In this document: piece by piece, positions 28,490-46,446 of the stretch
Numbering within the stretch: the first letter of the stretch is position 1
Layout of the letters: every line of letters starts with the position of its first letter
NCBI GenBank assembly: GCA_022340285.1
Contig: JAJDOG010000087.1
Span: 1 to 64,000 of the forward strand
Reading direction: 5' to 3'
Length of the DNA stretch: 64,000 nucleotides
Source of the DNA: Betaproteobacteria bacterium
Lineage (GTDB): Bacteria; Pseudomonadota; Gammaproteobacteria; Burkholderiales; SG8-39
The notes under the pieces: generated by a model
Database searches by the model: none
What the model saw: the letters and a program-made list of their open reading frames with translations, nothing else
What the model was told of the DNA's origin: nothing
Program-made: the position numbers and the translations under genes

Positions 28490-30028
28490 ATGAACCTGGC
28501 ACGACTACTGGCCCGTGCGGCCAGTGCCTTACCCGACGCACCAGCCGTTTCGCGTGGCCCGATTCGCTACGCGAATTACGCGCAGCTCGCGCAACGCAGC
28601 GCCGAGCTCGCGACGACGCTGCGCACGCGCCTCGCCCTCGCACCCGGCGATCGGGTCGGCGTATTCATGCACAATTGTCCGGAATACGTCGAGACCGTCT
28701 GGGGCGCGTGGTGGGGCGGACTGGCAACCGTGCCGATCAATGCCAAGCTGCACACGCGCGAAGCCCAATACATCCTCGATAACAGCCAGGCGCGAGTGTG
28801 CTTCGTCAGCCCGGACCTCGCTACGGGTCTGGCACCTCTCGCCGGCTCCCCTCCCGCGCTCGAGCATCTGATTGAAGTCGGATCGGCAGACTACCGGGGG
28901 CTCTTCGGCGGTCAACCGGCACCGCTTCATGACGCCACCTCCGACGACCTAGCGTGGCTTTTCTATACGAGCGGTACCACCGGCCGGCCCAAGGGTGTCA
29001 TGCTCACCCATCGGAACATGATGGCGGCAACCTGGTGCTACTTCGCCGACGTCGACACGATCGCGCCCGGCGATTCGATCCTCCATGCAGCACCGATGTC
29101 CCACGGCTCGGGTATGTACGGCATTCCGCACGTTTTGGCGGCCGCGCACCAGGTCATCCCCGAAAGCGGCGCTTTCGAGCCCGGCGAGATCTTCAGCCTC
29201 GTCGCCCATCACCGCGGCGTCGCCATGTTCGCCGCGCCGACGATGGTCAAGCGCATGGTGGACTACGCACGCGAGACTCACCCCGCGCTCGAAGGGCTCA
29301 AGACCGTGATCTACGGTGGCGGGCCGATGTACCTCGCCGACATCCAGGACGCCCTGGCGGTGATGGGCCAGCGCTTCGCGCAGATCTATGGTCAGGGCGA
29401 GACGCCGATGACCATCACCGCGCTCGCCAAGCATCACTTCGGCGCAACGTCGCATCCGCGCTACGCGCACCGCCTGGCCTCGGTCGGCATCGCGCAGTCC
29501 GCGGTCGAGGTGGTGGTGGCCGGGTCCGACGACCGACCGGTTGCGCCGGGCGAGGCGGGCGAAGTGCTGGTGCGCGGCGATTCGGTGATGAAAGGCTACT
29601 GGCGCGATCCGGAGGCCACCGCGGCCACCCTTGCGGGCGGCTGGCTGCACACCGGCGACATCGGCTCGCTCGACGCCGACGGGTTCCTGACGCTGATGGA
29701 TCGTTCGAAGGACATGATCATCAGCGGCGGCTCGAACATCTATCCGCGGGAAGTGGAGGAGGTCCTGCTCCTTCACCCGGGCGTGCAGGAGGTTTCCGTC
29801 GTCGGCCGCGTGCACGAAGAGTGGGGCGAGGAGGTCGTCGCTTTCGTCGTCCGCGCGCCCGGTGCCGAGACGGCCGCCGCGGAGCTCGATGCGCTGTGCC
29901 TCGAGCACATCGCGCGTTTCAAGCGGCCGAAGCATTACCGCTTCGTGGAGCGGTTGCCGAAGAACAATTACGGAAAAGTGCTGAAGACCGAGCTTCGCGC
30001 GCAGCTCGCGCGCGAAGCGGATCGCTGA
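28490..30028 (+). CDS. AMP-forming acyl-CoA synthetase (fatty-acid--CoA ligase family)
   Basis: The protein has 512 residues. The ATP/AMP signature YTSGTTGRPKG is at 159-169, HTGDIGSLDADGFL and DRSKDMIISGGSNIYPREVE form the hinge region, and the catalytic lysine near the end is in KNNYGKVLKTEL. It activates a carboxylic acid to its CoA thioester through an acyl-adenylate. Substrate length cannot be read from the sequence. It is convergent with the HAD gene at the end of the Ehr operon (11-base gap). Confidence 0.88.
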   Translation: MNLARLLARAASALPDAPAVSRGPIRYANYAQLAQRSAELATTLRTRLALAPGDRVGVFMHNCPEYVETVWGAWWGGLATVPINAKLHTREAQYILDNSQARVCFVSPDLATGLAPLAGSPPALEHLIEVGSADYRGLFGGQPAPLHDATSDDLAWLFYTSGTTGRPKGVMLTHRNMMAATWCYFADVDTIAPGDSILHAAPMSHGSGMYGIPHVLAAAHQVIPESGAFEPGEIFSLVAHHRGVAMFAAPTMVKRMVDYARETHPALEGLKTVIYGGGPMYLADIQDALAVMGQRFAQIYGQGETPMTITALAKHHFGATSHPRYAHRLASVGIAQSAVEVVVAGSDDRPVAPGEAGEVLVRGDSVMKGYWRDPEATAATLAGGWLHTGDIGSLDADGFLTLMDRSKDMIISGGSNIYPREVEEVLLLHPGVQEVSVVGRVHEEWGEEVVAFVVRAPGAETAAAELDALCLEHIARFKRPKHYRFVERLPKNNYGKVLKTELRAQLAREADR

Positions 30029-30039
30029 CTCACGTCCCG

Positions 30040-30510
30040 CTACGCGCGCAAGGTCGCGGTCAGTCGCAGGGGGTGGAGGAACAGATCAAGCGCATCGGCA
30101 ATCGAGAGCGCAACGATGTCGGCGGCTGCGACCGACTGCGCCGCAGCGCCCTCCCTCTGGATCACCGCGATGCCGAGGCGCGCCGCGCGCAGCATCCCAC
30201 GGTCGTTGCGACCGTTGCCCACGCACGCCACGCGCGCGGCGCCGAGTCCGCGCACATAGCGCGCCTTCGCCAGGTCTTGGCGCTTCGCGCCCAGAACCAC
30301 GAGTCTGCACGGCATGCCCTCGAGTGCGCGCCCGACCGTCCCGAAGGTGTCGGCGGTCAGCACGTGCAATTCGAGCCGCCGGGCAAGCGCGCGCAGGCGT
30401 GGGCGAACCCCGGGCAGGAGCCGTCCGTCGACGGCGAGCGTGCCGTTGTAGTCGAGCACGAGATGCCCGATGCGCAGCGCTCCGAAGCCCGGAATCGTCG
30501 TTGTGATCAA
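30040..30510 (-). CDS. soluble HAD-family hydrolase related to P-type ATPases (COG4087 type), last gene of the fluoride-controlled operon
   Basis: No ATG is available, so I place the start at a TTG whose bases overlap the stop of the preceding gene (TTGA), giving 156 residues. DYNGTLAVDG is the HAD phosphorylation loop in the form DxNGT, close to the DKTGT loop of P-type ATPases. GAKRQDLAKARYVR supplies the lysine motif, and ACVGNGRNDRGML is motif III with its aspartate. The product is a small soluble phosphatase-like domain without membrane helices. It is translationally coupled to the membrane subunit upstream, hence under the fluoride riboswitch. Its substrate is unknown; a maintenance or metal-handling role for the complex is speculation. 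Confidence 0.75.
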   Translation of the reverse strand: MITTTIPGFGALRIGHLVLDYNGTLAVDGRLLPGVRPRLRALARRLELHVLTADTFGTVGRALEGMPCRLVVLGAKRQDLAKARYVRGLGAARVACVGNGRNDRGMLRAARLGIAVIQREGAAAQSVAAADIVALSIADALDLFLHPLRLTATLRA

Positions 30511-32651
30511 GCCAATCCCAACGTCAGCGCGAGCGCCAGAGCTAGCAGAACGTAGGCGACGTAGGCGTTGAGACGACCATGGTGCATCCTCGCCAAACCG
30601 TTGGCCAGGCCCATCGCCGCCCACCTCGCGGGCTGCATGGCGTAGCGCTCCACGACGTGCACCGCCAGGTGATTGCGGCGGATGGCCATGCGGAAGTGCT
30701 CGGCCACCGTTTCGCGCGTGTCCTCCACCGTCGTGGGGCGAAAGATCGCGTCGAAGATCACCCGTACGGGGTTGGAGAAACCCGTCGCGGTATAGGTCAT
30801 CTCCGGCAGCAACCGCCGCACCCCGCCGTCCCAGCGCTCGCCCCGCGCCAGTCGGCGCCTGCGCGTAAGCCACAAGCGCAGCACCACGTAGGTCAACCCC
30901 AGGAGGACGGCGAGCACCACCAGCATGTAGGAGGTCGACATCGCGAACACCACCGGATTCTCCGCGGCGCCGCGGTGCAGGACGACCAGCCCCCGCCCCG
31001 GCAAAACGCTCTGCCCGACCTGCGCGCCGAGGTCGTGAAACTCCGCTGCGAACGCCGGCGGCAGTGCGCCGTTCGACGCGTGCGACGCGAAGAACGGCGG
31101 GACCAGGGCTTCGGTCGCGCTCGCGTGTGTCCACGGCTGCAAGGCGGGGTCCAGCGCCTGAATCATGTACGTTGGCAGCGTGCCGAGGAGCAAACACAGC
31201 GCCGCCAGGATAACCATCGGCACGATCGACGACTTCCTCGCCTCGGTAGCCCTTGCGGCCCCTTCGGAGCGCGACATGCCGAGAAAGCCCATCGCGAACA
31301 TCTTTGCGAAACAGGTTACGGCCAGCGCCGCGGTCAGAGCTAGCCCCGCGCCGCACAGCGCAAAGACGATCTTGACCGGTATAGAGGGCAGCTCCGCCGC
31401 GCGCAGCATGGTCTGCAGCGTGAGCCACTCGCTGACGAAGCCGTTGAACGGCGGCAAGGCGGAGATCGCCAGCGCGCCGACCAGCATGGCGCCCGACGTC
31501 CACGGCATCGCGCGAACCAGTCCGCCGAGCTGGTTCAGATCGCGGGTGCCGGTGCGGTCGTCGACCGTTCCTGCCCCCAGGAACAGCAGCGCCTTGTACA
31601 CGGAATGGTTGATCATGTGATAGAGGGACGCGACGAAAGCGATTCCCGCGAGAGCCGGACGTTGATAGGCCATGAAAATGAGACCCGCGCCCAGACCGGC
31701 GGTCACGATCCCGATGTTCTCGATGGAGCTGTGGGCAAGCATGGCCTTGAGGTCGTTTTCGGTGGCGGCGTAGAGAATCCCGATCAGCGCCGAGACGGTG
31801 CCGACGACGAGCACGACGAGGCCCGCGCCGACCATGTCGACGGGTACGAGATCGAGATTCAGGCGGACGATCCCGTAGAGCCCGAGATTCAGGATCACGC
31901 CGGAGAGGATCGCCGAGACATTCGCAGGCGCGGCGGGATGTGCGCGCGGAAGCCAGGCGTTGACCGGCACGAGACCGGCCTTGATGCCGAAGCCGAAGAA
32001 GGTCAGCAGGAAGATAAGCCAGCGCGCGGTCGGCCCCAGATCCTCCGCGGCCGCCTTGAGCGCCCGGAATTCCAGCGATCCGGCGTTCGCCGCCAGAAAC
32101 AGGAACACCAGGACGACCGCCACGAATCCCGCTTCGCCCATGGCAAGCATGAGATAGCCCGCGCGGCTGCTCTCGTCGCGGCGGTGCTCGAAGGTGACGA
32201 GCAGATAGCTCAGCACGGACATCGCCTCCCAGGCCAGCAGGAAGAGCAGCGCATCGTCGGCGATCAGGATCAGCACGATCGAGGCGGCGAGCAGCAGGAA
32301 CCAGGCGTTCATCGCCTTCAAGCTGTACCGGCCCGCGTACCGCTTGAGGTAACTTGCGGAGAACACCGAGGCAGCCATCAAGACGACCGCCGCCACGAAC
32401 AGAAAGAGTGCCGAGAGGCGATCGACCGAAACGGCAAGCTTGCCGAACGGAACGACCGTCCAGAGCGTCGCCTCGAAGATGGTTCCCGACCATAGGACGC
32501 TCGCGGCGGCTCCCATTGCCGCAGCAGCGGCGAGCGAGCCGGCCCAAGCGAGCACCGCCGGGTTCCGTCGATCGGACACGATCAGGCCTGCGAGTGCCCC
32601 ACCGGCGCAGAGCGCGAACACCGCGACGAGCATCCACCCTTGAGCGCTCAC
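30507..32651 (-). CDS. Ehr complex antiporter-like membrane subunit (HyfB/NuoL family)
   Basis: From a GTG start that overlaps the previous stop (GTGA) the protein has 714 residues. It is a polytopic membrane protein of the Mrp-antiporter/NuoL-M-N family: LLFLLAWEAMSVLSYLLV, GIKAGLVPVNAWLPRAHPAA with the conserved lysine, KAMLAHSSIENIG and HMINHSVYKALLFLG are signature blocks. Subunits of this type move protons or sodium ions. The length is close to HyfB/HycC of formate hydrogenlyase. It is the sixth gene of the fluoride-riboswitch operon. Confidence 0.88.
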   Translation of the reverse strand: MSAQGWMLVAVFALCAGGALAGLIVSDRRNPAVLAWAGSLAAAAAMGAAASVLWSGTIFEATLWTVVPFGKLAVSVDRLSALFLFVAAVVLMAASVFSASYLKRYAGRYSLKAMNAWFLLLAASIVLILIADDALLFLLAWEAMSVLSYLLVTFEHRRDESSRAGYLMLAMGEAGFVAVVLVFLFLAANAGSLEFRALKAAAEDLGPTARWLIFLLTFFGFGIKAGLVPVNAWLPRAHPAAPANVSAILSGVILNLGLYGIVRLNLDLVPVDMVGAGLVVLVVGTVSALIGILYAATENDLKAMLAHSSIENIGIVTAGLGAGLIFMAYQRPALAGIAFVASLYHMINHSVYKALLFLGAGTVDDRTGTRDLNQLGGLVRAMPWTSGAMLVGALAISALPPFNGFVSEWLTLQTMLRAAELPSIPVKIVFALCGAGLALTAALAVTCFAKMFAMGFLGMSRSEGAARATEARKSSIVPMVILAALCLLLGTLPTYMIQALDPALQPWTHASATEALVPPFFASHASNGALPPAFAAEFHDLGAQVGQSVLPGRGLVVLHRGAAENPVVFAMSTSYMLVVLAVLLGLTYVVLRLWLTRRRRLARGERWDGGVRRLLPEMTYTATGFSNPVRVIFDAIFRPTTVEDTRETVAEHFRMAIRRNHLAVHVVERYAMQPARWAAMGLANGLARMHHGRLNAYVAYVLLALALALTLGLA

Positions 32652-33394
32652 ATCCCCCCCTCGGCCGAGGTCAGCGGGACCGCCGGCTTGCGGCCGGCAG
32701 CTACCAGCAAGCCGTGCAGAATCGCGAGCGGCGGCGGCGGGTTTCCGGGCACCTCGACGTCGACCGGCAGGACTTCGCTCACGCCCCTGCCGCAGACGAA
32801 GCTTTCCGCAAACACCCCGCCCGAAAGCGCGCACGCGCCCACGGCAACGACCCGCTTGGGCGTCGGCATGGCGTCGTGAATCTTCTTCAGCGCCGCATGC
32901 ATGTGATCGGTGACGGGACCCACGACGAGAAGGACGTCGGCATGGCGAGGCGTCGGCGTGATGAAGAAGCCCAGCCGGTGCATGTTGTAGTACGCGTTGT
33001 TGAGCTGCTTCACCTCGTTGAGGCACGCGCCGCAGTCACCGGCATCGACGACCAGGATATGGATGGAGCGCCGGAACGGTCCCCCGAGCCGATCCTGCGC
33101 GCGGGGTTCCCCGCTCAACCCCGCCCATTCGTAGCCAGCCTGCCAGGCGAGCGGACGCGGCACTCCACGAACGCAGCGGTAACAGTGAACGCAGCGTCGG
33201 TAGTCGACCGCGATGTATCCATCCTTCTGGTCGAGTGCCCCCGTGGGGCAGCGCTCCGCGAGCGCCGCGGCCTCCGCGCCGAGCACGTCGCCGACGGGCA
33301 ATCCCGGTGTCACGCCAGGAGCGTGCTCCGGGTCGCGCGGGTACCCGGTCGTCTTGATGCCGGTCCGGATGCCCCTGATGACCCATCGACTCAT
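32648..33394 (-). CDS. Ehr complex NuoB/HyfI-like subunit with a ferredoxin-like N-terminus
   Basis: The protein has 248 residues. The N-terminal part has Cys49 (CPTGAL) and Cys68/71/74 (CVHCYRC), enough for one [4Fe-4S] cluster. The C-terminal part is the NuoB/hydrogenase small-subunit fold with Cys121 and Cys124 (GDCGACLNE) and Cys188 (VGACALSGG). The place of the fourth cysteine, normally PGCPP, reads PGNPP (Asn218). The cluster that sits next to the active site in complex I and NiFe hydrogenases therefore lacks one usual ligand. This is consistent with an electron-transfer role that has changed or been lost. It overlaps the next gene by four bases. Confidence 0.85.
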   Translation of the reverse strand: MSRWVIRGIRTGIKTTGYPRDPEHAPGVTPGLPVGDVLGAEAAALAERCPTGALDQKDGYIAVDYRRCVHCYRCVRGVPRPLAWQAGYEWAGLSGEPRAQDRLGGPFRRSIHILVVDAGDCGACLNEVKQLNNAYYNMHRLGFFITPTPRHADVLLVVGPVTDHMHAALKKIHDAMPTPKRVVAVGACALSGGVFAESFVCGRGVSEVLPVDVEVPGNPPPPLAILHGLLVAAGRKPAVPLTSAEGGM

Positions 33395-33416: not shown

Positions 33417-35003
33417 TCAGCGGTCGTTCTCGGCCACGGACAGATCGAAGGTCGAGAGAATGATCGGAAAATCCTGGAACGCGAATTTCTCGGCGGCGAG
33501 GTGAAAGCTATGCCAATTGACGAAGGATGGCGTGATGATGTGGTAGCGCGAGACCCGGCCGCCGTCGTCGAGTCTCACCCAGTGGAACGCCGCGCCGCGC
33601 GGCGCTTCGACCGCGCCCAGCGCGGCGCCCCCCCGCAGGTTCACCGGTGCGCGGATTTCGCCTTCCCGCAACGCATCGACGGCCTGCTCCATGATGCGCA
33701 TTGATTGCCGCGCTTCCGCGAAGAGAACGCGCAGCCGCGCGTAGCCGTCGCCCTCCTCCTCGCTCGGCACGTCGAACTCGTACGATTCGTATCCCGAATA
33801 CGGTTGCACGCGGCGCAGGTCGCGGACGAATGCGGAGGCGCGCGCGACCGGCCCGACCAGGCTGTAGGCGCGCGCCACCTGGGGGAAGATCACGCCCACC
33901 TCCTCGATCCGGTCGAGAAAGCTGCTCGAGATGCGAAGCTCGTCGTCGAGCGAGCGCATCCGGGCGAGTACGGCCCTCGCCGCGCCGAGCGCCTCACGGC
34001 ATGCTCCGGTCGGGAGATCACAGGCAAGCCCACCTGGCGTGAGCAGACCGAAGAGGTACCGGTGGCCGGCCAGATTTCCCGATACGCGCAGCAGCTCTTC
34101 CTCGAGAATTCCGGCCTGGCTCGTCGCGACCACGAGCGCCGTGGATTCGCAGATCTCCTGGATCGCGCCCGCGTGCTGGCGCAGGCGTTCCAGCTCGGCC
34201 AGGAAGACGCGCAATACGCACGCCCGCGCGGGCACGTCGGCGCCGGCGATGGACTCGACGGCCTGGCAATACGCCAGGCCATGCGCGAACGCCGTCGTCG
34301 CGGCGAACCGCTCGGCGAGGAGAAGGACCTCATCGGGGGTCTTGCCCTCGGCGAGCTTCTCGACCGCACGCCATTTGTAGAAGAGGCGCGTCGAGGAACG
34401 GATGACGTCCTCGCCGACCGTCTCGAGCAGAAAATGCACCGATTCCGTCACCCCGGAGAACTTTGGTCCGATCGGCATGACGAACGCGCCAGGTTCCTGG
34501 AGGATGCGCTGCGGCCGCCAGTCGGCGTCGGGACGGCGGTTGCGCATTGCGGCCACCGCATCGAAGCCGCGACGCATTGGCTCGACGCTCTCCTGCCACG
34601 CGTCGTCATGGAGCACGAAATCGCCGAGCCGCGGGTGGCCCTCGAAGCGGACGCCGAACAGGTCCTCGGCCTCGCGCTCGTGCCAGTCCGCGGCGTAGAT
34701 CCCTGCTTCGACGACGACGCTGGGAAATGCGTTCTCCGCGAGCGGCGCGGCCACGAGAACGTGAACCCATCCCGCGTCGCGCTCGCCGTAGAACACGTAG
34801 CGGAGGCGCCACGCGTCGGGACCCTCCTCGACGATCAGGCCGGCAAAGCTGAAGTCCCATTCATGGAAAATACGACGGCATACGTCCGCGAGCGCAGCCC
34901 GCTCGCACGTCACTTCGTTCACGCGACGCGCGGCATCGAAGCGGCACCGCGCTCGGCCGGGCCAGCCGTCTTCGATCCGGTCCTTCAGCTCGACGCCGTT
35001 CAT
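33417..35003 (-). CDS. Ehr complex NuoCD/HyfG-like large subunit without NiFe ligands
   Basis: The protein has 528 residues. Residues 1-150 resemble NuoC (WHEREAEDLFGVRFEGHP), and the rest resembles NuoD and the hydrogenase large subunit (PIGPKFSGVTES, FSG loop). In NiFe enzymes the metal is held by RxCGxC and DPCxxC. Here the first place reads HGLAYCQAVE (residues 241-250, a single cysteine, shifted) and the second, at the C-terminus, reads FDLSVAENDR (519-528, no cysteine). It therefore cannot be a hydrogenase. This pattern defines energy-converting hydrogenase-related (Ehr) complexes. Its own catalytic function, if any, is unknown. Confidence 0.85.
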   Translation of the reverse strand: MNGVELKDRIEDGWPGRARCRFDAARRVNEVTCERAALADVCRRIFHEWDFSFAGLIVEEGPDAWRLRYVFYGERDAGWVHVLVAAPLAENAFPSVVVEAGIYAADWHEREAEDLFGVRFEGHPRLGDFVLHDDAWQESVEPMRRGFDAVAAMRNRRPDADWRPQRILQEPGAFVMPIGPKFSGVTESVHFLLETVGEDVIRSSTRLFYKWRAVEKLAEGKTPDEVLLLAERFAATTAFAHGLAYCQAVESIAGADVPARACVLRVFLAELERLRQHAGAIQEICESTALVVATSQAGILEEELLRVSGNLAGHRYLFGLLTPGGLACDLPTGACREALGAARAVLARMRSLDDELRISSSFLDRIEEVGVIFPQVARAYSLVGPVARASAFVRDLRRVQPYSGYESYEFDVPSEEEGDGYARLRVLFAEARQSMRIMEQAVDALREGEIRAPVNLRGGAALGAVEAPRGAAFHWVRLDDGGRVSRYHIITPSFVNWHSFHLAAEKFAFQDFPIILSTFDLSVAENDR

Positions 35004-35010
35004 GCGTGGC

Positions 35011-36480
35011 TCACCTCACCAGTGCCGCGGCGGCGTGCTTCATGAGCTCGTGCAGCGGCTGCGGAACATAGACCCCGAGAACGAGCACCGGCACGGCGGC
35101 CAGAATCAGAATCAGCGTGCAGGTGAACGGCAACCGTGATCCCGCCGCTCCGGGCGGATCGGGCAGGCCCTGGGCTGGTGCGCCGAACACCATCCGATTC
35201 AGATGGACCATCACGCCGAAGAATGCGATCACGATGAAGAGCGCAAGCAGCCCGGTTGCGACATACCGCCCCTGCGCAAGCCCGGCCTTCAGAATCGCGA
35301 ATTCGCTCAGAAAGACGGCGAGCGGTGGAGCGCCGGCAACGGCGAGCCCGCCGAAGATGAGCGCGGCGCCGGCGATGGGCGCGCGCCGTACCAATCCGCG
35401 CACCATGGCAATTTCACGCGTCCCCACGGCGAGCAGCGTCGCGCCAGCGGCGAAGAAGCAGAAGGACTTGGTCACCGAATGATTGACGATCTGTTGCATG
35501 GCGCCGTAGTCGGCGGATGCCCCGAGCCCGACCGCCGTCAGGACGATGCCCATGTGCTCGACGGTGGAGAACGCGAACAGGCGCTTGTAGTCGCTCACTT
35601 GGAGGAGGAGGAGCGCCGCGGTGCCCACCGAGATCAGCCCCAGGACGAGCGCCCAGGTCTGGGCGTGCGCGCCCGGCACGGCCTGCATGATCGGAAACAG
35701 CCGCAGGATCACGTAGAGGATCGACGTGGTCTCGATCCCCGACAGCAGCGCACACACCGGGGACGGCGCCTGGCTGTGGGCATCGGGCAGCCACGTGTGC
35801 ATCGGCACGAGGCCGACCTTGGTTCCGAGACCGATCAAGATCAGCAGGAAAGCCGTTTGCACGAGAAGCGGCGGCATTCCGGGCGCGGCCGCGACGAGTC
35901 CCGCCCAGGTGTACTGGCTCCCGCCGCCCGCGTGCAGGGCGGCGAAAAGCACGAGGAACCCGAACAGTGCGATGCCCGCACCCATGAGCGAGAGCACGAC
36001 GTACTTCCAGGCGGCTTCGAGCGCCTCGCGCGTGTTCGCGAAGGAAACGAGGAGCGCCGAGCAGAGCGTCGTCAGCTCGACCACGATCCAGACCAGCGTC
36101 GGCTCCGCGAGCAGCGGAATCGCCAGCATCGAGAAGATGAAGAGGTTGTAGTTCGCGTGGTAGAGGCGCAGCCTTCGCGGCGCCGGGTTCCCGTGCGCCA
36201 TGTAACCGACCGAGTAGACGGCAGCGGTGGTCGCCACCAGCGCGATCAGGAGCAGGATCAGCACGCTCAGCCCATCCACGGCGACCCAATTCGACCAAGT
36301 GGGATCGAGGCTGTCCGTAACCGGCTCGCCCGCTGCGACGCGCCACGCCATCCGCGCGGCGAGCACCAGAACGATCAGGCACGAGAGCACCGTCACACCG
36401 GGCGCCCAGCCCCTGCGGAACGGAATCCAGGCGAGCGCGGCGGCGACGAGCGGCGGAAAGAGGATCGCGACAACGCTCAT
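35011..36480 (-). CDS. Ehr complex antiporter-like membrane subunit (HyfF/NuoN family)
   Basis: The protein has 489 residues and about fourteen membrane helices. Blocks such as GTKVGLVPMHTWLPDAHSQAP, FSTVEHMGIVL and NHSVTKSFCFFAAG are typical of the HyfF/NuoL-M-N family of ion-translocating subunits. Together with the HyfB-like gene downstream this gives the complex two antiporter-type subunits. Its ATG overlaps the stop of the HyfE-like gene (ATGA). Confidence 0.88.
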   Translation of the reverse strand: MSVVAILFPPLVAAALAWIPFRRGWAPGVTVLSCLIVLVLAARMAWRVAAGEPVTDSLDPTWSNWVAVDGLSVLILLLIALVATTAAVYSVGYMAHGNPAPRRLRLYHANYNLFIFSMLAIPLLAEPTLVWIVVELTTLCSALLVSFANTREALEAAWKYVVLSLMGAGIALFGFLVLFAALHAGGGSQYTWAGLVAAAPGMPPLLVQTAFLLILIGLGTKVGLVPMHTWLPDAHSQAPSPVCALLSGIETTSILYVILRLFPIMQAVPGAHAQTWALVLGLISVGTAALLLLQVSDYKRLFAFSTVEHMGIVLTAVGLGASADYGAMQQIVNHSVTKSFCFFAAGATLLAVGTREIAMVRGLVRRAPIAGAALIFGGLAVAGAPPLAVFLSEFAILKAGLAQGRYVATGLLALFIVIAFFGVMVHLNRMVFGAPAQGLPDPPGAAGSRLPFTCTLILILAAVPVLVLGVYVPQPLHELMKHAAAALVR

Positions 36481-37187
36481 GGTGCCGCCTCCTCGGCCAG
36501 CCGCTTCGCAGGCACCTCCTTCAGGCTTGCCAGCTCGCCGACAGCCGTGGTGCCGACGTGCTGCTCGACCGCCCGGACCAGCACGCCCACGATGAACACG
36601 ATGATCAGGCCGTCGGTGGCGATGGCGAGCTCGACCAGGATGGGGAGGTCGCGAGCGATGGAAATGCCGGCCAGAAACGCCCCGTTCTCCATCGCCAGCA
36701 GGCCGATGAGCAGCGGCATCGCCTCACGCCGAACGGCGAGCGTGAACGCGCCGAGCGCGAGTCCCGCGATCCCGATGGGCACGTTGGGACCGTGATACCC
36801 GGGACCGACGGCGTTCGCCAGCGGAACCCCTAGGAAATAGGCCCCGATCGCCAGTGCCAGGGCGATGATCAGCGCGGTCGGGATGTTCAGGACCTGGTCG
36901 ATCTCGCGCCGCGTATAGATCTCGGCGGGTGCGATCCGGCGCAGGAGCCACGGGACGATGATCGGCTTGCTGATGACGTTCACGAGCGCCACGCCGTAGA
37001 GATGCCCCGAATCGAAGTGCAGTCCGAGCAGCGCGGCCGACGCCGCAAGGAGCAGCGACTGGGCGATGAACAGATGCAAGCAGCCCCGCGCCTGGCGCGT
37101 GGCCACGATTCCGAACGCGGTGAGCAAGAAGAGACCGGTCGCAAGCGCGTTCAGGTTCTCGATCAATTGTGTGGTCGCGTCGCTCAT
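36477..37187 (-). CDS. Ehr complex HyfE-like membrane subunit
   Basis: The protein has 236 residues and about seven membrane helices. Its composition, size and place in the operon match HyfE of hydrogenase 4, which is distantly related to NuoK/MrpC. Helices include GLFLLTAFGIVAT and LIIVFIVGVLVRAVEQHVG near the C-terminus. It lies 7 bases after the NuoH-like gene and overlaps the HyfF-like gene, consistent with equal expression of the membrane arm. Confidence 0.8.
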   Translation of the reverse strand: MSDATTQLIENLNALATGLFLLTAFGIVATRQARGCLHLFIAQSLLLAASAALLGLHFDSGHLYGVALVNVISKPIIVPWLLRRIAPAEIYTRREIDQVLNIPTALIIALALAIGAYFLGVPLANAVGPGYHGPNVPIGIAGLALGAFTLAVRREAMPLLIGLLAMENGAFLAGISIARDLPILVELAIATDGLIIVFIVGVLVRAVEQHVGTTAVGELASLKEVPAKRLAEEAAP

Positions 37188-37194
37188 CGTCCGG

Positions 37195-38145
37195 TCAGGC
37201 CACGAAGACTTGCGCGATCAGCGCCGCGACCGACGTGACAAACGCTGCACCCAGGAACTCGGCGATGCGAAACAGGCGCAGCTTGGCCAGCGACGACTCA
37301 ATGAGGACCAGGACGAGAACGAAACAGAAGAGCTTGAGCAGCACGAGCGGTATGGCGAGCAGCACCGCGCCGAGGTGTTGCTCACCCGCCAGGCCCCACG
37401 GCGTCACCAGCACGTTGAGAAAGATGCACAGGAGCACGAAGAACTTCATCTGCCCGCCCCATTTCATCAGCGCGAAGCCGCGCCCGGAGTACTCCAACGA
37501 CTTGGACTCGTCGATCATCGCCAGCTCGAAATGACCGGTCGGGTTGTCCACGGGGATCCGCCCGCCCTCGGCAAGGATCAGCATGAGAAACGCCAGCACG
37601 AGAAGCACATGGGATGGTGCGAAGAAGTTCGCCAGCGGCGTCACCCACTTCTGCTGGACGATGTAGGGAATCGTCGAGCCGGCCACGAACGAGACGGTGA
37701 AAAACACGATCATGAAGACCGGCTCGGCGAGAAATCCGACCATCCGCGTGCGGCTCGCCCCGATGGGCCCGTAGGGATTGGCCGTGTCGACCGCCGCGAG
37801 CGTGGCGAAGAATCCCCCCAGCGCCAGCACGAAGCCGCCGCCGAGCATGTCGCCCATGAAGGCGAAGAAGAGGGGGTAGCTCGTCAGCACCGGAATCAGC
37901 AGCGCGACGAAGATTGGCGCAACGAAGACGACGTACGGCGTGAAGCGAAAGATCCACGAACTGTCCTCGGACACGATCTCGTCCTTGTGAAACAGCTTCC
38001 ACAAGTCACGGTAGGGCTGAAAGATGCTCGGCCCGCGCTTGGACTGGACCATTTCCTTGAGCCGCGCGAGCACGCCCGATACGAGCGGCGCGAAGGCCAT
38101 CACGACCACGACTTGCAGGAGATTGAAGAGAATGCGCTCGCTCAT
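37195..38145 (-). CDS. Ehr complex NuoH/HyfC-like membrane subunit
   Basis: The protein has 316 residues. It is the NuoH/HycD/HyfC membrane anchor that joins the peripheral arm to the ion-moving arm: SKRGPSIFQPYRDLWKLFHK, AEGGRIPVDNPTGHFELAMI and ESKSLEYSGRGFAL are the diagnostic loops that face the redox module. It is the first gene of the operon, 148 bases beyond the riboswitch terminator T-run (38293-38298). It has no obvious SD right before the ATG at 38145. Confidence 0.9.
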   Translation of the reverse strand: MSERILFNLLQVVVVMAFAPLVSGVLARLKEMVQSKRGPSIFQPYRDLWKLFHKDEIVSEDSSWIFRFTPYVVFVAPIFVALLIPVLTSYPLFFAFMGDMLGGGFVLALGGFFATLAAVDTANPYGPIGASRTRMVGFLAEPVFMIVFFTVSFVAGSTIPYIVQQKWVTPLANFFAPSHVLLVLAFLMLILAEGGRIPVDNPTGHFELAMIDESKSLEYSGRGFALMKWGGQMKFFVLLCIFLNVLVTPWGLAGEQHLGAVLLAIPLVLLKLFCFVLVLVLIESSLAKLRLFRIAEFLGAAFVTSVAALIAQVFVA

Positions 38146-38292
38146 GTGCGTGCAAGCCCATTCTCGGTGGCCTGCCGACGACATCGGCGGCTACCGACCG
38201 CGGTGTCATGGTCGGCGACAGGCTCGTGGGAGAGCGCCATCCGCATCCTCCGAGGTTGTTCTACGCATTCGCGTCACGTCGGAGGAGGGCAC

Positions 38293-38336
38293 AAAAAAGC
38301 CTACGGAACCGCCCTCCTCGGGCGCGTCACGTAGGC
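38293..38336 (-). terminator. intrinsic terminator forming the expression platform of the fluoride riboswitch
   Basis: On the minus strand GCCTACG (38336-38330) pairs with CGTAGGC (38305-38299), an inner GGC-rich stem CGCCC/GGGCG (38324-38320 with 38314-38310) forms inside, and a run of six T follows (38298-38293). The upstream arm GCCTAC is also the conserved 3' end of the aptamer, so ligand binding and termination are mutually exclusive. It also stops read-through from the upstream mobB-moeA-moaDE-crcB transcript. Confidence 0.85.
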
Positions 38337-38385
38337 ATCATCAGCCTTGCGGCGGTTGTTGTTCGGGAGGAATGCCATCTCCCGC
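38330..38385 (-). ncRNA. fluoride riboswitch aptamer (crcB motif) upstream of the Ehr operon
   Basis: Read on the minus strand, all conserved parts of the fluoride aptamer are present in order. P1 is CGGGAG / CTCCCG (38384-38379 with 38369-38364) enclosing ATGGCAT. The AAC-rich linker is followed by P2 GCC-GCAA-GGC (38353-38344). CTGATGATGCCTAC closes the motif. The long-range pseudoknot GGCAT (38376-38372) with ATGCC (38338-38334) is intact. The sequence is close to the Pseudomonas syringae example as I recall it. The last bases overlap the terminator arm, so fluoride should cause anti-termination and raise expression of the seven genes downstream. Confidence 0.93.
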
Positions 38386-38394
38386 TTCAAGACG

Positions 38395-38423
38395 ATCCTA
38401 GCCGCAATCCGCTCACATGTAAA
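38395..38423 (-). promoter_or_regulatory. sigma-70 promoter of the riboswitch/Ehr operon
   Basis: TTTACA (38423-38418) and TAGGAT (38400-38395) are spaced by exactly 17 bases on the minus strand, directly after the DUF190 stop codon. The predicted start, near 38388, is only a few bases before the aptamer, as usual for riboswitches. Confidence 0.8.
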
Positions 38424-38434
38424 CAGGCACGCGG

Positions 38435-38767
38435 CTACTCTTCGCTGTCATCCGGAAACCACCCGTACTCGACTTCGGAGCGCACGAAGAACACCTGCAC
38501 GCGCTCGGTTCGCAGCAATTCGAGCAACCGCTCGGCGAGCACCGGCGTCGTGACAACGCCCAACTCTATCGGCAGTTTGCCGGCCTCTTCGAAGAAGTGA
38601 CCGTAGTGCATATGTCCGTGCCGCCCGAACCCGCCGACCGCGCGAAACGCGGCACCGCCCTTGATTCCGCAGTCGCGCGCCGCGTTCAAGAGCCACTCGT
38701 GCATCAGGTGATGGTGGTGGCGTGCACCTTCCGGAAAGTAGAACTGCAACCTTACGCCCTTGCGCAT
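38435..38767 (-). CDS. DUF190 family protein, partner of CrcB
   Basis: The protein has 110 residues. It is rich in histidine near the N-terminus (ARHHHHLMHEW) and contains GIKGGAAFRAVGGFG and HMHYGHFFEEAGKLPI, typical of the PII-like DUF190 family that is often next to crcB. The function is not established; a regulatory or sensing role for fluoride export is inferred from the neighbourhood. It follows crcB by 4 bases. The promoter and riboswitch of the next operon begin right after its stop. Confidence 0.85.
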   Translation of the reverse strand: MRKGVRLQFYFPEGARHHHHLMHEWLLNAARDCGIKGGAAFRAVGGFGRHGHMHYGHFFEEAGKLPIELGVVTTPVLAERLLELLRTERVQVFFVRSEVEYGWFPDDSEE

Positions 38768-38771
38768 GCTT

Positions 38772-39155
38772 TCACCTCGTCAGGATGCGGACCGCGGCGA
38801 TGCCCGCCGCGGTCATGGCAAGCGAGCCCAGGAGATGCGTGAGCACGTGCAGGCCGGCCCAGGCGTACTGGCCGCGCCCGAGGAGCGTCACCGCCTCCGC
38901 AGAGAAGGTCGAATAGGTCGTGAGGGCGCCGAGGAATCCGGTGATGATCGCCAATCGCCACTCAGGAGCAATTCCGGGGTATGTCGCGAAAAACTCGATT
39001 GCAATGCCGATCGCGAGTCCCCCGCCGAGATTCGCCGCGAGCGTGCCGAGCGGCAGATCCGGGAGTATGGGGTTGAGCAAAGTGCCCAACCCCCAACGCA
39101 GCCAGGCTCCGAGCGCCGCGCCGACCCCGACCGCCGCGAAAGCGAGCGCAGTCAT
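38772..39155 (-). CDS. crcB: fluoride exporter FluC/CrcB
   Basis: The protein has 127 residues with four membrane helices. Signature segments are [26 protein letters not shown] and [14 protein letters not shown], the last being the conserved TTFSTFS-like fluoride pore motif. FluC works as a dual-topology dimer and keeps cytoplasmic fluoride low. The gene lies only 6 bases after moaE, so it appears to be transcribed with the molybdenum-cofactor genes. No fluoride aptamer is visible upstream of it; the aptamer is downstream, facing the Ehr operon. Confidence 0.9.
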
Positions 39156-39161
39156 CTCTGA

Positions 39162-39632
39162 TCAGGCTACGTCCTGCTTGGGCTTCACCCAGCGCTCGGC
39201 GGCGATGTCGTCCGACCCGCGCGCGTCCACCCAACGGCTGCCCTCGGGGGTCTGCTCCTTCTTCCAGAACGGCGCGCGAGTCTTCAGGTAGTCCATCAGG
39301 AACTCGCACGCCGCGAATGCATCGCCGCGATGCTCGCCCACGACCACCACCAGCACGATCTGGTCGAGCGGCTTGAGCTCGCCGACGCGATGAATCACGG
39401 TCGCGTCGATGATGCGCCAGCGCGACCGGGCCTCGGCCACGATGTCCTCGAGGGCCTTCTCGGTCATGCCGGGATAGTGCTCGAGCGTCAGCGTGGCAAC
39501 GGCGTTGCCGTCGTTGACGTCGCGCACGGTGCCGATGAAGCTCGCCACCGCGCCCACCTTGGTGTTGGCCGCCCGCAGCGCGGCGATTTCCCGTCCGATG
39601 TCGAAATCCTCGGTCTGGATGCGCACCGGCAT
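39162..39632 (-). CDS. moaE: molybdopterin synthase catalytic subunit MoaE
   Basis: The protein has 156 residues. Blocks such as GAVASFIGTVRDVN, EHYPGMTEKALEDI, IHRVGELKPLDQIVLVVV and WKKEQTPEGSRWVDARG are characteristic, the KKE lysine being part of the active site. With MoaD it converts precursor Z (cPMP) to molybdopterin. It follows moaD directly, as is common, and precedes crcB. Confidence 0.95.
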   Translation of the reverse strand: MPVRIQTEDFDIGREIAALRAANTKVGAVASFIGTVRDVNDGNAVATLTLEHYPGMTEKALEDIVAEARSRWRIIDATVIHRVGELKPLDQIVLVVVVGEHRGDAFAACEFLMDYLKTRAPFWKKEQTPEGSRWVDARGSDDIAAERWVKPKQDVA

Positions 39633-39633
39633 T

Positions 39634-39888
39634 TCAGCCTCCTGTCACGGGAGGAAAGAACGCGACTTCGTCCCCCGCGTGCACCGGCGTTCCCGGCTCG
39701 GCCATTTCGTGGTTCACCGCAACGCGCAGCGCCCTGCCCTGCTCGAGTGCGCTCTGCCACGTCGCGCCGCGCGCCATCAGATGGGCGCGGAGGCCCGCGA
39801 CGGTCGTCACGCCGCCCGGCAGCGCAAGCTCCTCGGACGCCTTGCCGAGATCCTCGCGCAGCTTTGCGAAATACAGCACTTTAATCAT
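39634..39888 (-). CDS. moaD: molybdopterin synthase sulfur carrier subunit MoaD
   Basis: The protein has 84 residues, with a ubiquitin-like fold and the C-terminal FFPPVTGG whose final glycine becomes the thiocarboxylate. The ATG at 39888 gives the normal length; the frame is open further upstream but that sequence overlaps moeA. It acts with MoaE. Confidence 0.95.
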   Translation of the reverse strand: MIKVLYFAKLREDLGKASEELALPGGVTTVAGLRAHLMARGATWQSALEQGRALRVAVNHEMAEPGTPVHAGDEVAFFPPVTGG

Positions 39889-39892
39889 CGAT

Positions 39893-41098
39893 CTAGCCGA
39901 GCAGCTCCGAGAGCGGGATGTAGCGAACCATGTCGCCACGCGCAATCGGCTGGCGCTCGGGATTGTCGACCAGGCCGTCGGCGAACACTGCCGAGGTCAG
40001 CACGGCCGACCCCTGATTCGGAAAGAGCGCCAGCCCTCCCTCGCCGTTCAATTTTACCCGCAGGAATTCGCGGCGCGCGTCGGGCTTCGGCCAGTCGAAG
40101 TCGGCCCGCATCGGAAACGCGAGAGGCTCGACCGTCGAAACGCCCTGGCAGCGCAGGATGAACGGCCGGACGAAGACGACTGCGGTGACGAAGAGCGACA
40201 CCGGGTTGCCGGGAAGACCGATGAATGCCGCGCGGCCCACCTTGCCGAAGGCGAGCGGCTTGCCCGGCTTGACCGCGATGCGCCACATCTCGATCTCGCC
40301 TTCGGCCTCGACGGCAGCCTTCACGTAATCCTCTTCCCCGACCGACATCCCGCCGCTCGTCACGATGAGATCGCTCGTCGCGGCCGCGCGGCGGAACGCT
40401 TCGCGCGTCGCCGCGAGCGAATCGGGAATGATCCCCAGATCGTTCACCTCGCAGCCGAGTTGCTGCAGCAAGCCGCGGATCGTGAACCGGTTCGAGTTGT
40501 AGATCGCGCCTTCGGGAAGCTTCTCACCCGGCATGACGAGCTCGTTGCCGGTGAAGAACACTGCGACGCGCAGCCGCCGGTACACAGGGAGACTCGCAAG
40601 GCCCACGGAGGCCGCGAGCCCGCACGCCTGCGGCGTGAGCTTCGCGCCGCGCTCGAGAATGCGGCTCCCCGCACGAATGTCCTCTCCGGCCCTGCGTATC
40701 CACTCGCCCTGCTGCGGCTTGTGCCGCACCACGACGTGCTCGCCCTCGACGGTGCAGACCTCCTGGATCACGACCGCGTCGGCGCCCGGCGGAATCGGTG
40801 CGCCCGTGAAGATGCGCGCCGCCGTGCCCGGCGCAAGCGCCTTCCCGATCGTTCCGGCCGGAATGCGCTGGGCAATGTGGAGCCGTGCTTCGCCGCTCCC
40901 ACAATCGGCCGCGCGCACGGCGAAGCCATCCATCGAGGTGTTGTCCAGCGGCGGCACGTTGACGGCGGAAAACTGGTCCGCTGCCAGCACGCGACCGGTC
41001 GCCTCGAGCGTGCTCACGGGCTCGGTATCGGCGATCGGCGCCGCGCCGCCCAGCAGGGCGCCGAGCGCCTCGTCCACGGTGATCATTGGCTTGTTCAT
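39893..41098 (-). CDS. moeA: molybdopterin molybdenumtransferase MoeA
   Basis: The protein has 401 residues, normal for MoeA. VPPLDNTSMDGFAVRA is the N-terminal signature, RIFTGAPIPPGADAVVIQE and VTSGGMSVGEEDYVK are conserved, and LPGNPVSLFVTAVVFVRP is the C-terminal domain signature. It inserts molybdate into adenylated molybdopterin. Its ATG overlaps the end of mobB. Confidence 0.95.
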   Translation of the reverse strand: MNKPMITVDEALGALLGGAAPIADTEPVSTLEATGRVLAADQFSAVNVPPLDNTSMDGFAVRAADCGSGEARLHIAQRIPAGTIGKALAPGTAARIFTGAPIPPGADAVVIQEVCTVEGEHVVVRHKPQQGEWIRRAGEDIRAGSRILERGAKLTPQACGLAASVGLASLPVYRRLRVAVFFTGNELVMPGEKLPEGAIYNSNRFTIRGLLQQLGCEVNDLGIIPDSLAATREAFRRAAATSDLIVTSGGMSVGEEDYVKAAVEAEGEIEMWRIAVKPGKPLAFGKVGRAAFIGLPGNPVSLFVTAVVFVRPFILRCQGVSTVEPLAFPMRADFDWPKPDARREFLRVKLNGEGGLALFPNQGSAVLTSAVFADGLVDNPERQPIARGDMVRYIPLSELLG

Positions 41099-41589
41099 CT
41101 GAACCCGTTGTACTTTAGGACGAAATTCGCGATGCCGTCGTAGTCGTTGAGGTCGAACTGCGGCAGCTTCGTCTCGAGCGGGACGTCCGACGCTGCAGCC
41201 ACGATATCGCTGTCGTCCGGATACAGCATCGGTTTCCCGTTCGCCTCGCGGTAGATCTCGAGCTTCGGCATCGGGTAGCGCTTGTAGCCCTCGATCAGCA
41301 GCAGATCACATGGTGCCATCCGCTTGATCTGATCCTCGATTTCCGGCTCGGGTTCCCCGCGCAGCTCGTGCATGAGCACCCAGCGCTTCCCGGAGGTGAC
41401 CAACACTTCGTGACACCCTGCTTGCCGGTGCCGGTACGAGTCCTTGCCGGGCTGGTCGACGTCGAAGCTGTGGTGCGCATGCTTGATCAATGAAACCTTC
41501 AGCCCGCGCCCGACGAGGCGTGGGATCAGCTGCTCGATAAGCGTGGTCTTTCCGCTGCCGGACCAGCCGGCAAATCCGAACACCTTCAT
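41095..41589 (-). CDS. mobB: molybdopterin-guanine dinucleotide biosynthesis protein MobB
   Basis: From MKVFGFAGWSGSGKTTL at 41589 the protein has 164 residues. The P-loop GWSGSGKTT lies at 8-16, HAHHSFDVDQPGKDSYRH is the MobB signature, and LLLIEGYKRYPMPKLEIYR is the Walker B region. This GTP-binding protein assists attachment of GMP to the cofactor. An in-frame ATG at 41715 would add a non-conserved extension and is not favoured. It is the first gene of mobB-moeA-moaD-moaE-crcB-DUF190. Confidence 0.92.
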   Translation of the reverse strand: MKVFGFAGWSGSGKTTLIEQLIPRLVGRGLKVSLIKHAHHSFDVDQPGKDSYRHRQAGCHEVLVTSGKRWVLMHELRGEPEPEIEDQIKRMAPCDLLLIEGYKRYPMPKLEIYREANGKPMLYPDDSDIVAAASDVPLETKLPQFDLNDYDGIANFVLKYNGFR

Positions 41590-41726
41590 CCCAGGCGCCT
41601 GGCGCCGCTCGGGCGCGAGCCCCCGTCGGCAAAGTGGTTGATTGGAAAGCATGAATTCTAGCAGGCCCGCCTGCTCGACCGCCGCCGCGCGGACCGGCCA
41701 GGGATTCACCGCCACGACAGGTCGGG

Positions 41727-46326: not shown

Positions 46327-46354
46327 GACCTGGACTTGCGGTAAAGTCCTGGTC
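46327..46354 (+). terminator. hairpin after the molbindin gene
   Basis: GACC-T-GGACTT pairs with AAGTCC-T-GGTC around a GCGGTA loop, a 10-bp stem with one T-T mismatch, about ten bases after the stop. No T-run follows. Confidence 0.5.
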
Positions 46355-46446
46355 GGGGAATGCAGACTCCCCTTCAGACGGTGTCCCGTCCAAGCGCTGC
46401 TTGAGTTGCTTGCTTCTCGAGTCGCTTGATCGAGTGAGGGATACAC

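Follow-up and report, generated by a model that had tools for sequence, protein, structure and literature searches.

A fluoride riboswitch precedes operons for a clade of complex-I-type, hydrogenase-like complexes without the [NiFe] site

Fluoride riboswitches (the crcB RNA motif, RF01734) act by an established ON-switch mechanism. Among the targets of the motif, its first description listed 'formate hydrogen lyase' genes (Weinberg 2010, PMC2864571), in agreement with the initial annotation of the locus studied here, which placed hydrogenase-like genes near the motif. A 2024 review explains the formate hydrogen lyase link through formate metabolism (PMC11139923). The aptamer class, its anatomy and its general association with hydrogenase-like genes are known, and the formate hydrogen lyase link has stood since 2010; the switch-linked proteins, as reported below, cannot be hydrogenases. 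In the open literature, we found no paper linking fluoride switches to energy-converting, hydrogenase-related (Ehr) complexes and, as far as our searches show, the identity, the clade and the redox decay of the complex have no earlier description.

All subunits of the complex have homologues in E. coli Hyc, Hyf and complex I, from which the complex differs by having neither a [NiFe] site nor NADH module genes, by altered TM8 residues and by fluoride control. With Ehr complexes it shares subunits of the group 4 hydrogenase type, a membrane part resembling Mrp and the lack of Ni-Fe ligands, but the fluoride-linked members form a separate clade, with a ferredoxin domain fused to NuoB, a further loss of Fe-S ligands and a lysine-to-asparagine change in TM8 of HyfB. 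Mrp cation/proton antiporters, which contain homologous antiporter-type membrane subunits, lack NuoH, NuoB and NuoCD, whereas the clade complex keeps all three, NuoB and NuoCD being constrained even in the branch devoid of Fe-S ligands. The way in which the superfamily ties redox chemistry to the movement of ions is still under debate, and natural members without redox ligands would allow the ion-moving arm to be examined in isolation.

Switch anatomy and gene order at the locus

The window, that is, the whole stretch of 64,000 nucleotides analysed, was searched with cmscan against all Rfam families, and the features of the locus are collected in Table 1. The aptamer aligned over its full length on the minus strand, where the initial annotation had proposed an Infernal check, and its score lies above the Rfam gathering threshold. 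In the cmscan alignment the pseudoknot, which joins the P1 loop to the 3' strand, pairs GGCA with UGCC instead of the consensus GGAG with CUCC, a change that is compensated on both strands. In its own genome (4.37 Mb, 100% complete) this is the sole fluoride switch. The intact aptamer with its pseudoknot, the sigma-70 promoter with 17-base spacing and the terminator that has its first arm in common with the aptamer, all described beforehand from the letters, were recovered. Specifically, the promoter matches the consensus at 9 of 12 positions (0.1 such promoters expected in shuffles of the region), and the terminator folds with -26.7 kcal/mol (z -5.1), no shuffle being as good. A simple terminator scan of the region did not pick up this terminator, because its rule admits short loops only.

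Table 1. Features of the fluoride switch locus; positions refer to the window
Feature	Position	Strand	Details
Fluoride riboswitch aptamer RF01734	38325..38391	-	full length, 64/64 model positions; 51.8 bits, above the gathering score of 34; E 1.8e-11 in a search of the entire window with every Rfam family
Sigma-70-like promoter	38395..38423	-	TTTACA 38423-38418, 17-base spacer, TAGGAT 38400-38395
Intrinsic terminator	38293..38336	-	GCCTACG...CGTAGGC, nested inner hairpin, TTTTTT
NuoH/HyfC-like membrane subunit	37195..38184	-	PF00146, E 7e-32
HyfE-like membrane subunit	36477..37187	-	hydrogenase 4 membrane subunit, E 3e-20
HyfF-like antiporter-type subunit	35011..36480	-	E135, K221, K299, E393 present
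NuoC-NuoD fusion, hydrogenase large-subunit-like	33417..35003	-	0/4 [NiFe] cysteines
NuoB-like subunit, fused to a ferredoxin domain with four Cys	32648..33394	-	C49, C68, C71, C74
HyfB-like antiporter-type subunit	30507..32651	-	TM8 lysine of HyfB/HycC is Asn255
Small soluble HAD protein	30040..30513	-	resembles P-type ATPase phosphatase domain; final gene in the series
DUF190 protein	38435..38767	-	PF02641, E 3e-14; upstream of switch
CrcB/Fluc fluoride channel	38772..39155	-	fluoride efflux transporter CrcB, E 7e-46; upstream of switch

The first arm of the terminator, GCCTACG, overlaps the 3' strand of the aptamer, by which the pseudoknot is closed, so that the two folds are mutually exclusive, in the layout of an ON switch. 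In having a full aptamer, an overlapping terminator and an upstream promoter, the element is a genuine member of the fluoride riboswitch class. Fluoride-dependent read-through is predicted from this anatomy: fluoride binding would stabilise the aptamer and block the terminator, allowing RNA polymerase to enter the operon of the complex.

What distinguishes this switch from the class is its gene set: a hydrogenase-like complex stands under its control in place of crcB itself, even with crcB as the immediate upstream neighbour. Behind it, all on the minus strand, we found the seven genes that had been named from the sequence, namely NuoH, HyfE, HyfF, NuoCD, NuoB and HyfB homologues followed by the small HAD gene (TIGR01494, E 2.5e-6, below the cut-off), after which the next gene (28490-30028, plus strand) is convergent with the operon. 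The lengths of relatives suggest that the true start of the NuoH/HyfC-like gene is near 38145. The crcB and DUF190 genes directly upstream had been absent from the initial annotation; this crcB encodes the only CrcB of the genome, and the switch, promoter and terminator sit between crcB/DUF190 and the complex genes, all on the same strand. Three close relatives (L052, L055 and L056) have the switch ahead of a crcB gene, after which come DUF190 and the complex.

Further upstream, directly adjoining crcB on the same strand (39162-41715), genes resembling those for the molybdenum cofactor (MoaE-, MoaD-, MoeA- and MobB-like) were recognized by eye, and a MobB-like frame is also present in locus L086. 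The window contains, in addition, a chrB-b RNA motif (RF03086) at 46354-46400 on the plus strand (59.2 bits, gathering score 36.5). On contig 101 of the same genome (L051) there is a second, ordinary [NiFe]-less complex, with HyfB-first order and no fluoride switch.

Association of the switch with one clade

Relatives were gathered by NuoCD similarity alone (80 loci), and seven fluoride switches supplied the covariance model used to scan them, a clade-A operon being informative when at least 300 bases precede NuoH (n = 63). A switch lies within 1 kb upstream of NuoH, on the same strand, in 55 of these 63, as found when other genomes were searched, along the lines first suggested, for the same aptamer in front of such clusters. 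One member (L076) escaped the seven-switch model; RF01734 matches there with 39.5 bits, in the expected place. RF01734 itself scored above the gathering score in 46 of 50 genomes and in 12 of 15 genomes of a second set, which included three outgroup genomes.

In front of 33 control operons, comprising true formate hydrogenlyases and other hydrogenase-related complexes, no switch was found. These were 16 operons of hydrogenases or other hydrogenase-related complexes (L037-L039, L041-L046, L048-L051, L127, L128 and L131) and 17 further informative ones, five of which are true FHL/Hyf operons with RxCGxC, again with no switch in front. The difference between 55/63 and 0/33 gives a Fisher p of 1.7e-18 with phylogeny ignored. 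Weak switch matches in L229 (best 18.4 bits) lie elsewhere than in front of the operon. The [NiFe]-less complexes sampled outside the group (L037-L051 and most of L230-L244) showed no switch either.

The NuoCD tree places the switch-bearing rows together in a single group of 88 (SH-aLRT 100), made up of clade A (77 rows, support 100), clade B (10 rows, support 100) and the long-branch row L122_1453. By record titles and tree labels, switch-bearing members belong to 11 phyla; since most of the surveyed genomes are metagenome bins, some taxonomic labels and some absences may be wrong. In 14 genomes, including that of the window, hand mapping showed that the only RF01734 match is the switch of the complex operon. 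Of 55 aptamers, 19 are followed within 80 bases by a run of at least five T, against 3.9 expected, and a regular-expression search before the switchless members retrieved no degraded aptamers.

The neighbourhood points in the same direction. Among clade loci of at least 14 kb, crcB is present in 14 of 47 and DUF190 in 17 of 47, and neither was seen in the 16 control loci. Enolase, named by eye, occurs in 13 clade loci, and pyrophosphatase, MutS-like and Usp proteins recur, Usp being known as a fluoride-riboswitch or fluoride-response gene. Pyrophosphatase and MutS-like proteins are documented as such genes (PMC11139923, PMC2864571). In conclusion, the switch is tied to one clade of complex-I-type machines lying among fluoride genes, and the proposed fluoride control over an Ehr-type complex that lacks a hydrogenase site is strongly supported. 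That the switch serves crcB, or was placed by chance, with the complex as a bystander, would account for the crcB and DUF190 genes next door; this is extremely improbable, given that crcB in the window lies upstream of switch, promoter and terminator, and given the position of the switch before NuoH in the relatives and its absence from the controls.

Several further arrangements were observed in these genomes. Back-to-back fluoride switches on opposite strands, apparently serving divergent operons, occur in L053 (6643-6844), L078 (766-1138), L081 (1384-1695), L101 (3000-3344) and L121 (2891-3129); the genome of L101, a Hyphomicrobiales bin (G313), has twenty RF01734 matches in 6.1 Mb. Clade-A and clade-B complexes stand side by side in L034 (2839-18835), L098, L102, L087 and L112, and in L034 each is behind its own fluoride switch. 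In L122 (1453-2988, minus strand), the divergent long-branch complex, with E, S, T and G at the ligand positions, lies beside a clade-A complex, and no switch was found for it. A plasmid search returned only relatives of other groups, about 30% identical.

The [NiFe] site and the Fe-S centres

None of 91 large subunits (80 clade-A and 11 clade-B) carries the set of four cysteines that binds [NiFe]. At these positions the 80 clade-A rows have mostly Ser/Ala, Ser/Thr/Ala, Ser and Glu, and the 11 clade-B rows have Ser, Gly, Thr and Gly, while the full set is present in HycE, HyfG and the controls L127 and L131. The proteins of both clades are, therefore, not hydrogenases, and the subunit set is that of a group 4 hydrogenase-like complex without Ni-Fe ligands, as defines Ehr complexes. 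No NuoE, NuoF or NuoG gene (the NADH input module) was found in the operon, and the quinone-site motif HPSAHG of NuoD is absent from NuoCD, in which position 187 of the window protein is Glu, as in HycE. The missing C-terminal extension was considered as a mark of lost nickel processing and dropped, since it is equally missing from L127 and L131 with their intact cysteines. An AlphaFold model of NuoCD from a five-sequence alignment (pLDDT 52) was set aside.

A true formate hydrogenlyase, or another [NiFe] hydrogenase, is what the first description of the RNA motif annotated (PMC2864571), and in the solved-structure library the nearest chain to NuoCD is E. coli FHL subunit 5 (7z0s_E, E 1e-52), the nearest solved relatives of HyfB being E. 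coli formate hydrogenlyase subunits as well. This reading is contradicted by the 0/91 count, and the five true FHL/Hyf operons without a switch also speak against it, leaving it barely credible. The published 'formate hydrogen lyase' genes are almost certainly the same kind of operon as that of the window, whose NuoH-HyfE-HyfF-NuoCD-NuoB-HyfB order differs from the HyfB-first order of the control operons. With the [NiFe] cysteines replaced, neither that label (PMC2864571) nor the formate-metabolism reading (PMC11139923) fits the clade proteins. Non-hydrogenase proteins in one clade that spans many phyla point instead to a multi-subunit fluoride-resistance machine, for which we found no recorded function.

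The redox centres of NuoB present a graded picture. Among 65 full-length clade-A NuoB proteins, 64 or 65 have kept the ferredoxin-domain cysteines, as have 10 of 10 clade-B ones, which argues that redox matters for most members; electron input via this domain is probably still used in most of them. The proximal cluster of the window NuoB has three cysteines, the fourth being Asn218. Together with 21 relatives, the window makes up a set of 22 members that have N, D, H, Q, A or F in place of the fourth cysteine; three changes on the tree suffice for this. Cys201 occurs in 14 of the 22 members lacking C218 against 7 of 48 others, counts uncorrected for phylogeny, and may substitute for the lost ligand in some members, for instance in the lineage of the window.

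In three members, Eoetvoesiella caeni DSM 25520 (L103), a Rhodanobacter bin (L104) and Castellaniella caeni NBRC 101664 (L105), the ferredoxin domain and three of the four proximal cysteines of NuoB are gone. The switch is retained, just before NuoH in L103 and L105 and before crcB-DUF190-NuoH in L104. The reading frames are open, and dN/dS values of 0.06 to 0.35 across the six genes indicate purifying selection, with the caveats that some dS values are near saturation, that the L103 NuoCD frame was read too long and that HyfB comparisons with L104, a genome with two HyfB copies, may be between paralogues. No Fe-S-free members beyond these three turned up in a search of the L104 and L105 families, the other matches having kept their cysteines. 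Loss of the Fe-S ligands with the rest of the complex kept indicates that redox is not essential to the role of the clade.

These data bear directly on the possibility of a pump for protons or sodium that is driven by redox chemistry, as commonly understood for Ehr complexes, and induced by fluoride to rebuild the ion gradient. A reductant would hand electrons to the ferredoxin-like domain of NuoB, from which they would travel by way of the proximal cluster to an acceptor close to the former [NiFe] pocket and so drive the membrane arm. Conservation of the ferredoxin-domain cysteines and of the first three proximal cysteines, in nearly all clade-A and in all clade-B members, is consistent with such a pump; the Fe-S-free members with all their genes under purifying selection, the loss of the fourth proximal ligand in 22 members and the lack of any donor or acceptor gene consistently in the operon count against it, and we consider it unlikely, though not negligible for most members. 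The idea that a constant donor, formate dehydrogenase for example, supplies the electrons found no support, an FDH-like gene (by eye) being present in two loci only (L086 and L088).

Membrane arm and proposed role in fluoride response

Fluoride enters as HF and lowers both the cytoplasmic pH and the membrane potential, on which Fluc-mediated fluoride loss depends (PMC11139923). The operon encodes a complex of the complex I/group 4 hydrogenase superfamily, belonging to a fluoride-dedicated Ehr clade without a [NiFe] site. Its NuoH/HyfE/HyfF/HyfB membrane arm would translocate ions and, in doing so, could maintain the cytoplasmic pH and the membrane potential that HF entry disturbs. We thus favour, as a fairly probable reading, a fluoride-induced complex-I-type ion transporter to whose clade role redox chemistry is dispensable; transport, the ion, its direction and the benefit to the cell are what we infer from the sequences.

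The initial annotation had suggested that the complex helps the cell cope with fluoride by ion pumping. This fits the pump residues, which are mostly retained: K221, K299 and E393 of HyfF are present in 71 of 71 clade-A copies (E135 in 67), K224 and E408 of HyfB in 67 of 67 (E142 in 65), and D133, R145, E220 and K247 of NuoH are invariant in 62 clade-A copies. The idea of a redox pump, on the other hand, needs revising, because some members under selection lack the ferredoxin domain and the proximal ligands and the window NuoB itself has one cysteine changed to Asn.

The Fe-S-free members suggest, by analogy with Mrp, a stress-linked ion exchange without redox chemistry. Extended to the whole branch, this becomes a more tentative proposal, which we hold possible, though less likely than not: a dedicated fluoride-response transporter whose essential activity would be a redox-independent ion exchange, possibly including fluoride, with the redox centres in various stages of loss. 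A counterweight, for the favoured ion transporter as well, is that the Fe-S-free form was found in three genomes only.

The favoured ion transporter must also be weighed against a complex that is a fluoride exporter in its own right, perhaps a fluoride/proton exchanger, working alongside Fluc and CLC-F or in their place. No member of the complex I/group 4 hydrogenase superfamily is known to move fluoride. No CrcB was seen in 11 of 25 clade genomes, as such an exporter might lead one to expect, but many members adjoin crcB, and CLC proteins, some of which may be fluoride exporters, are encoded in 15 of 15 genomes tested; being present in all 15, the CLC genes do not discriminate whether the complex replaces other exporters. 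The TM8 residues are also in keeping with fluoride export, which on balance we judge improbable. Specifically, the position of the central HyfB TM8 lysine is Asn in 76 of 77 clade-A and clade-B copies against Lys in 12 of 12 outgroup copies (HyfB/HycC), and position 250 in TM8 of clade-A HyfF is Glu (63) or Lys (8) against Leu in the outgroup. By these changes the ion path differs from that of the relatives and appears kept but altered; without its TM8 lysine, HyfB could have an altered or reduced proton conduction.
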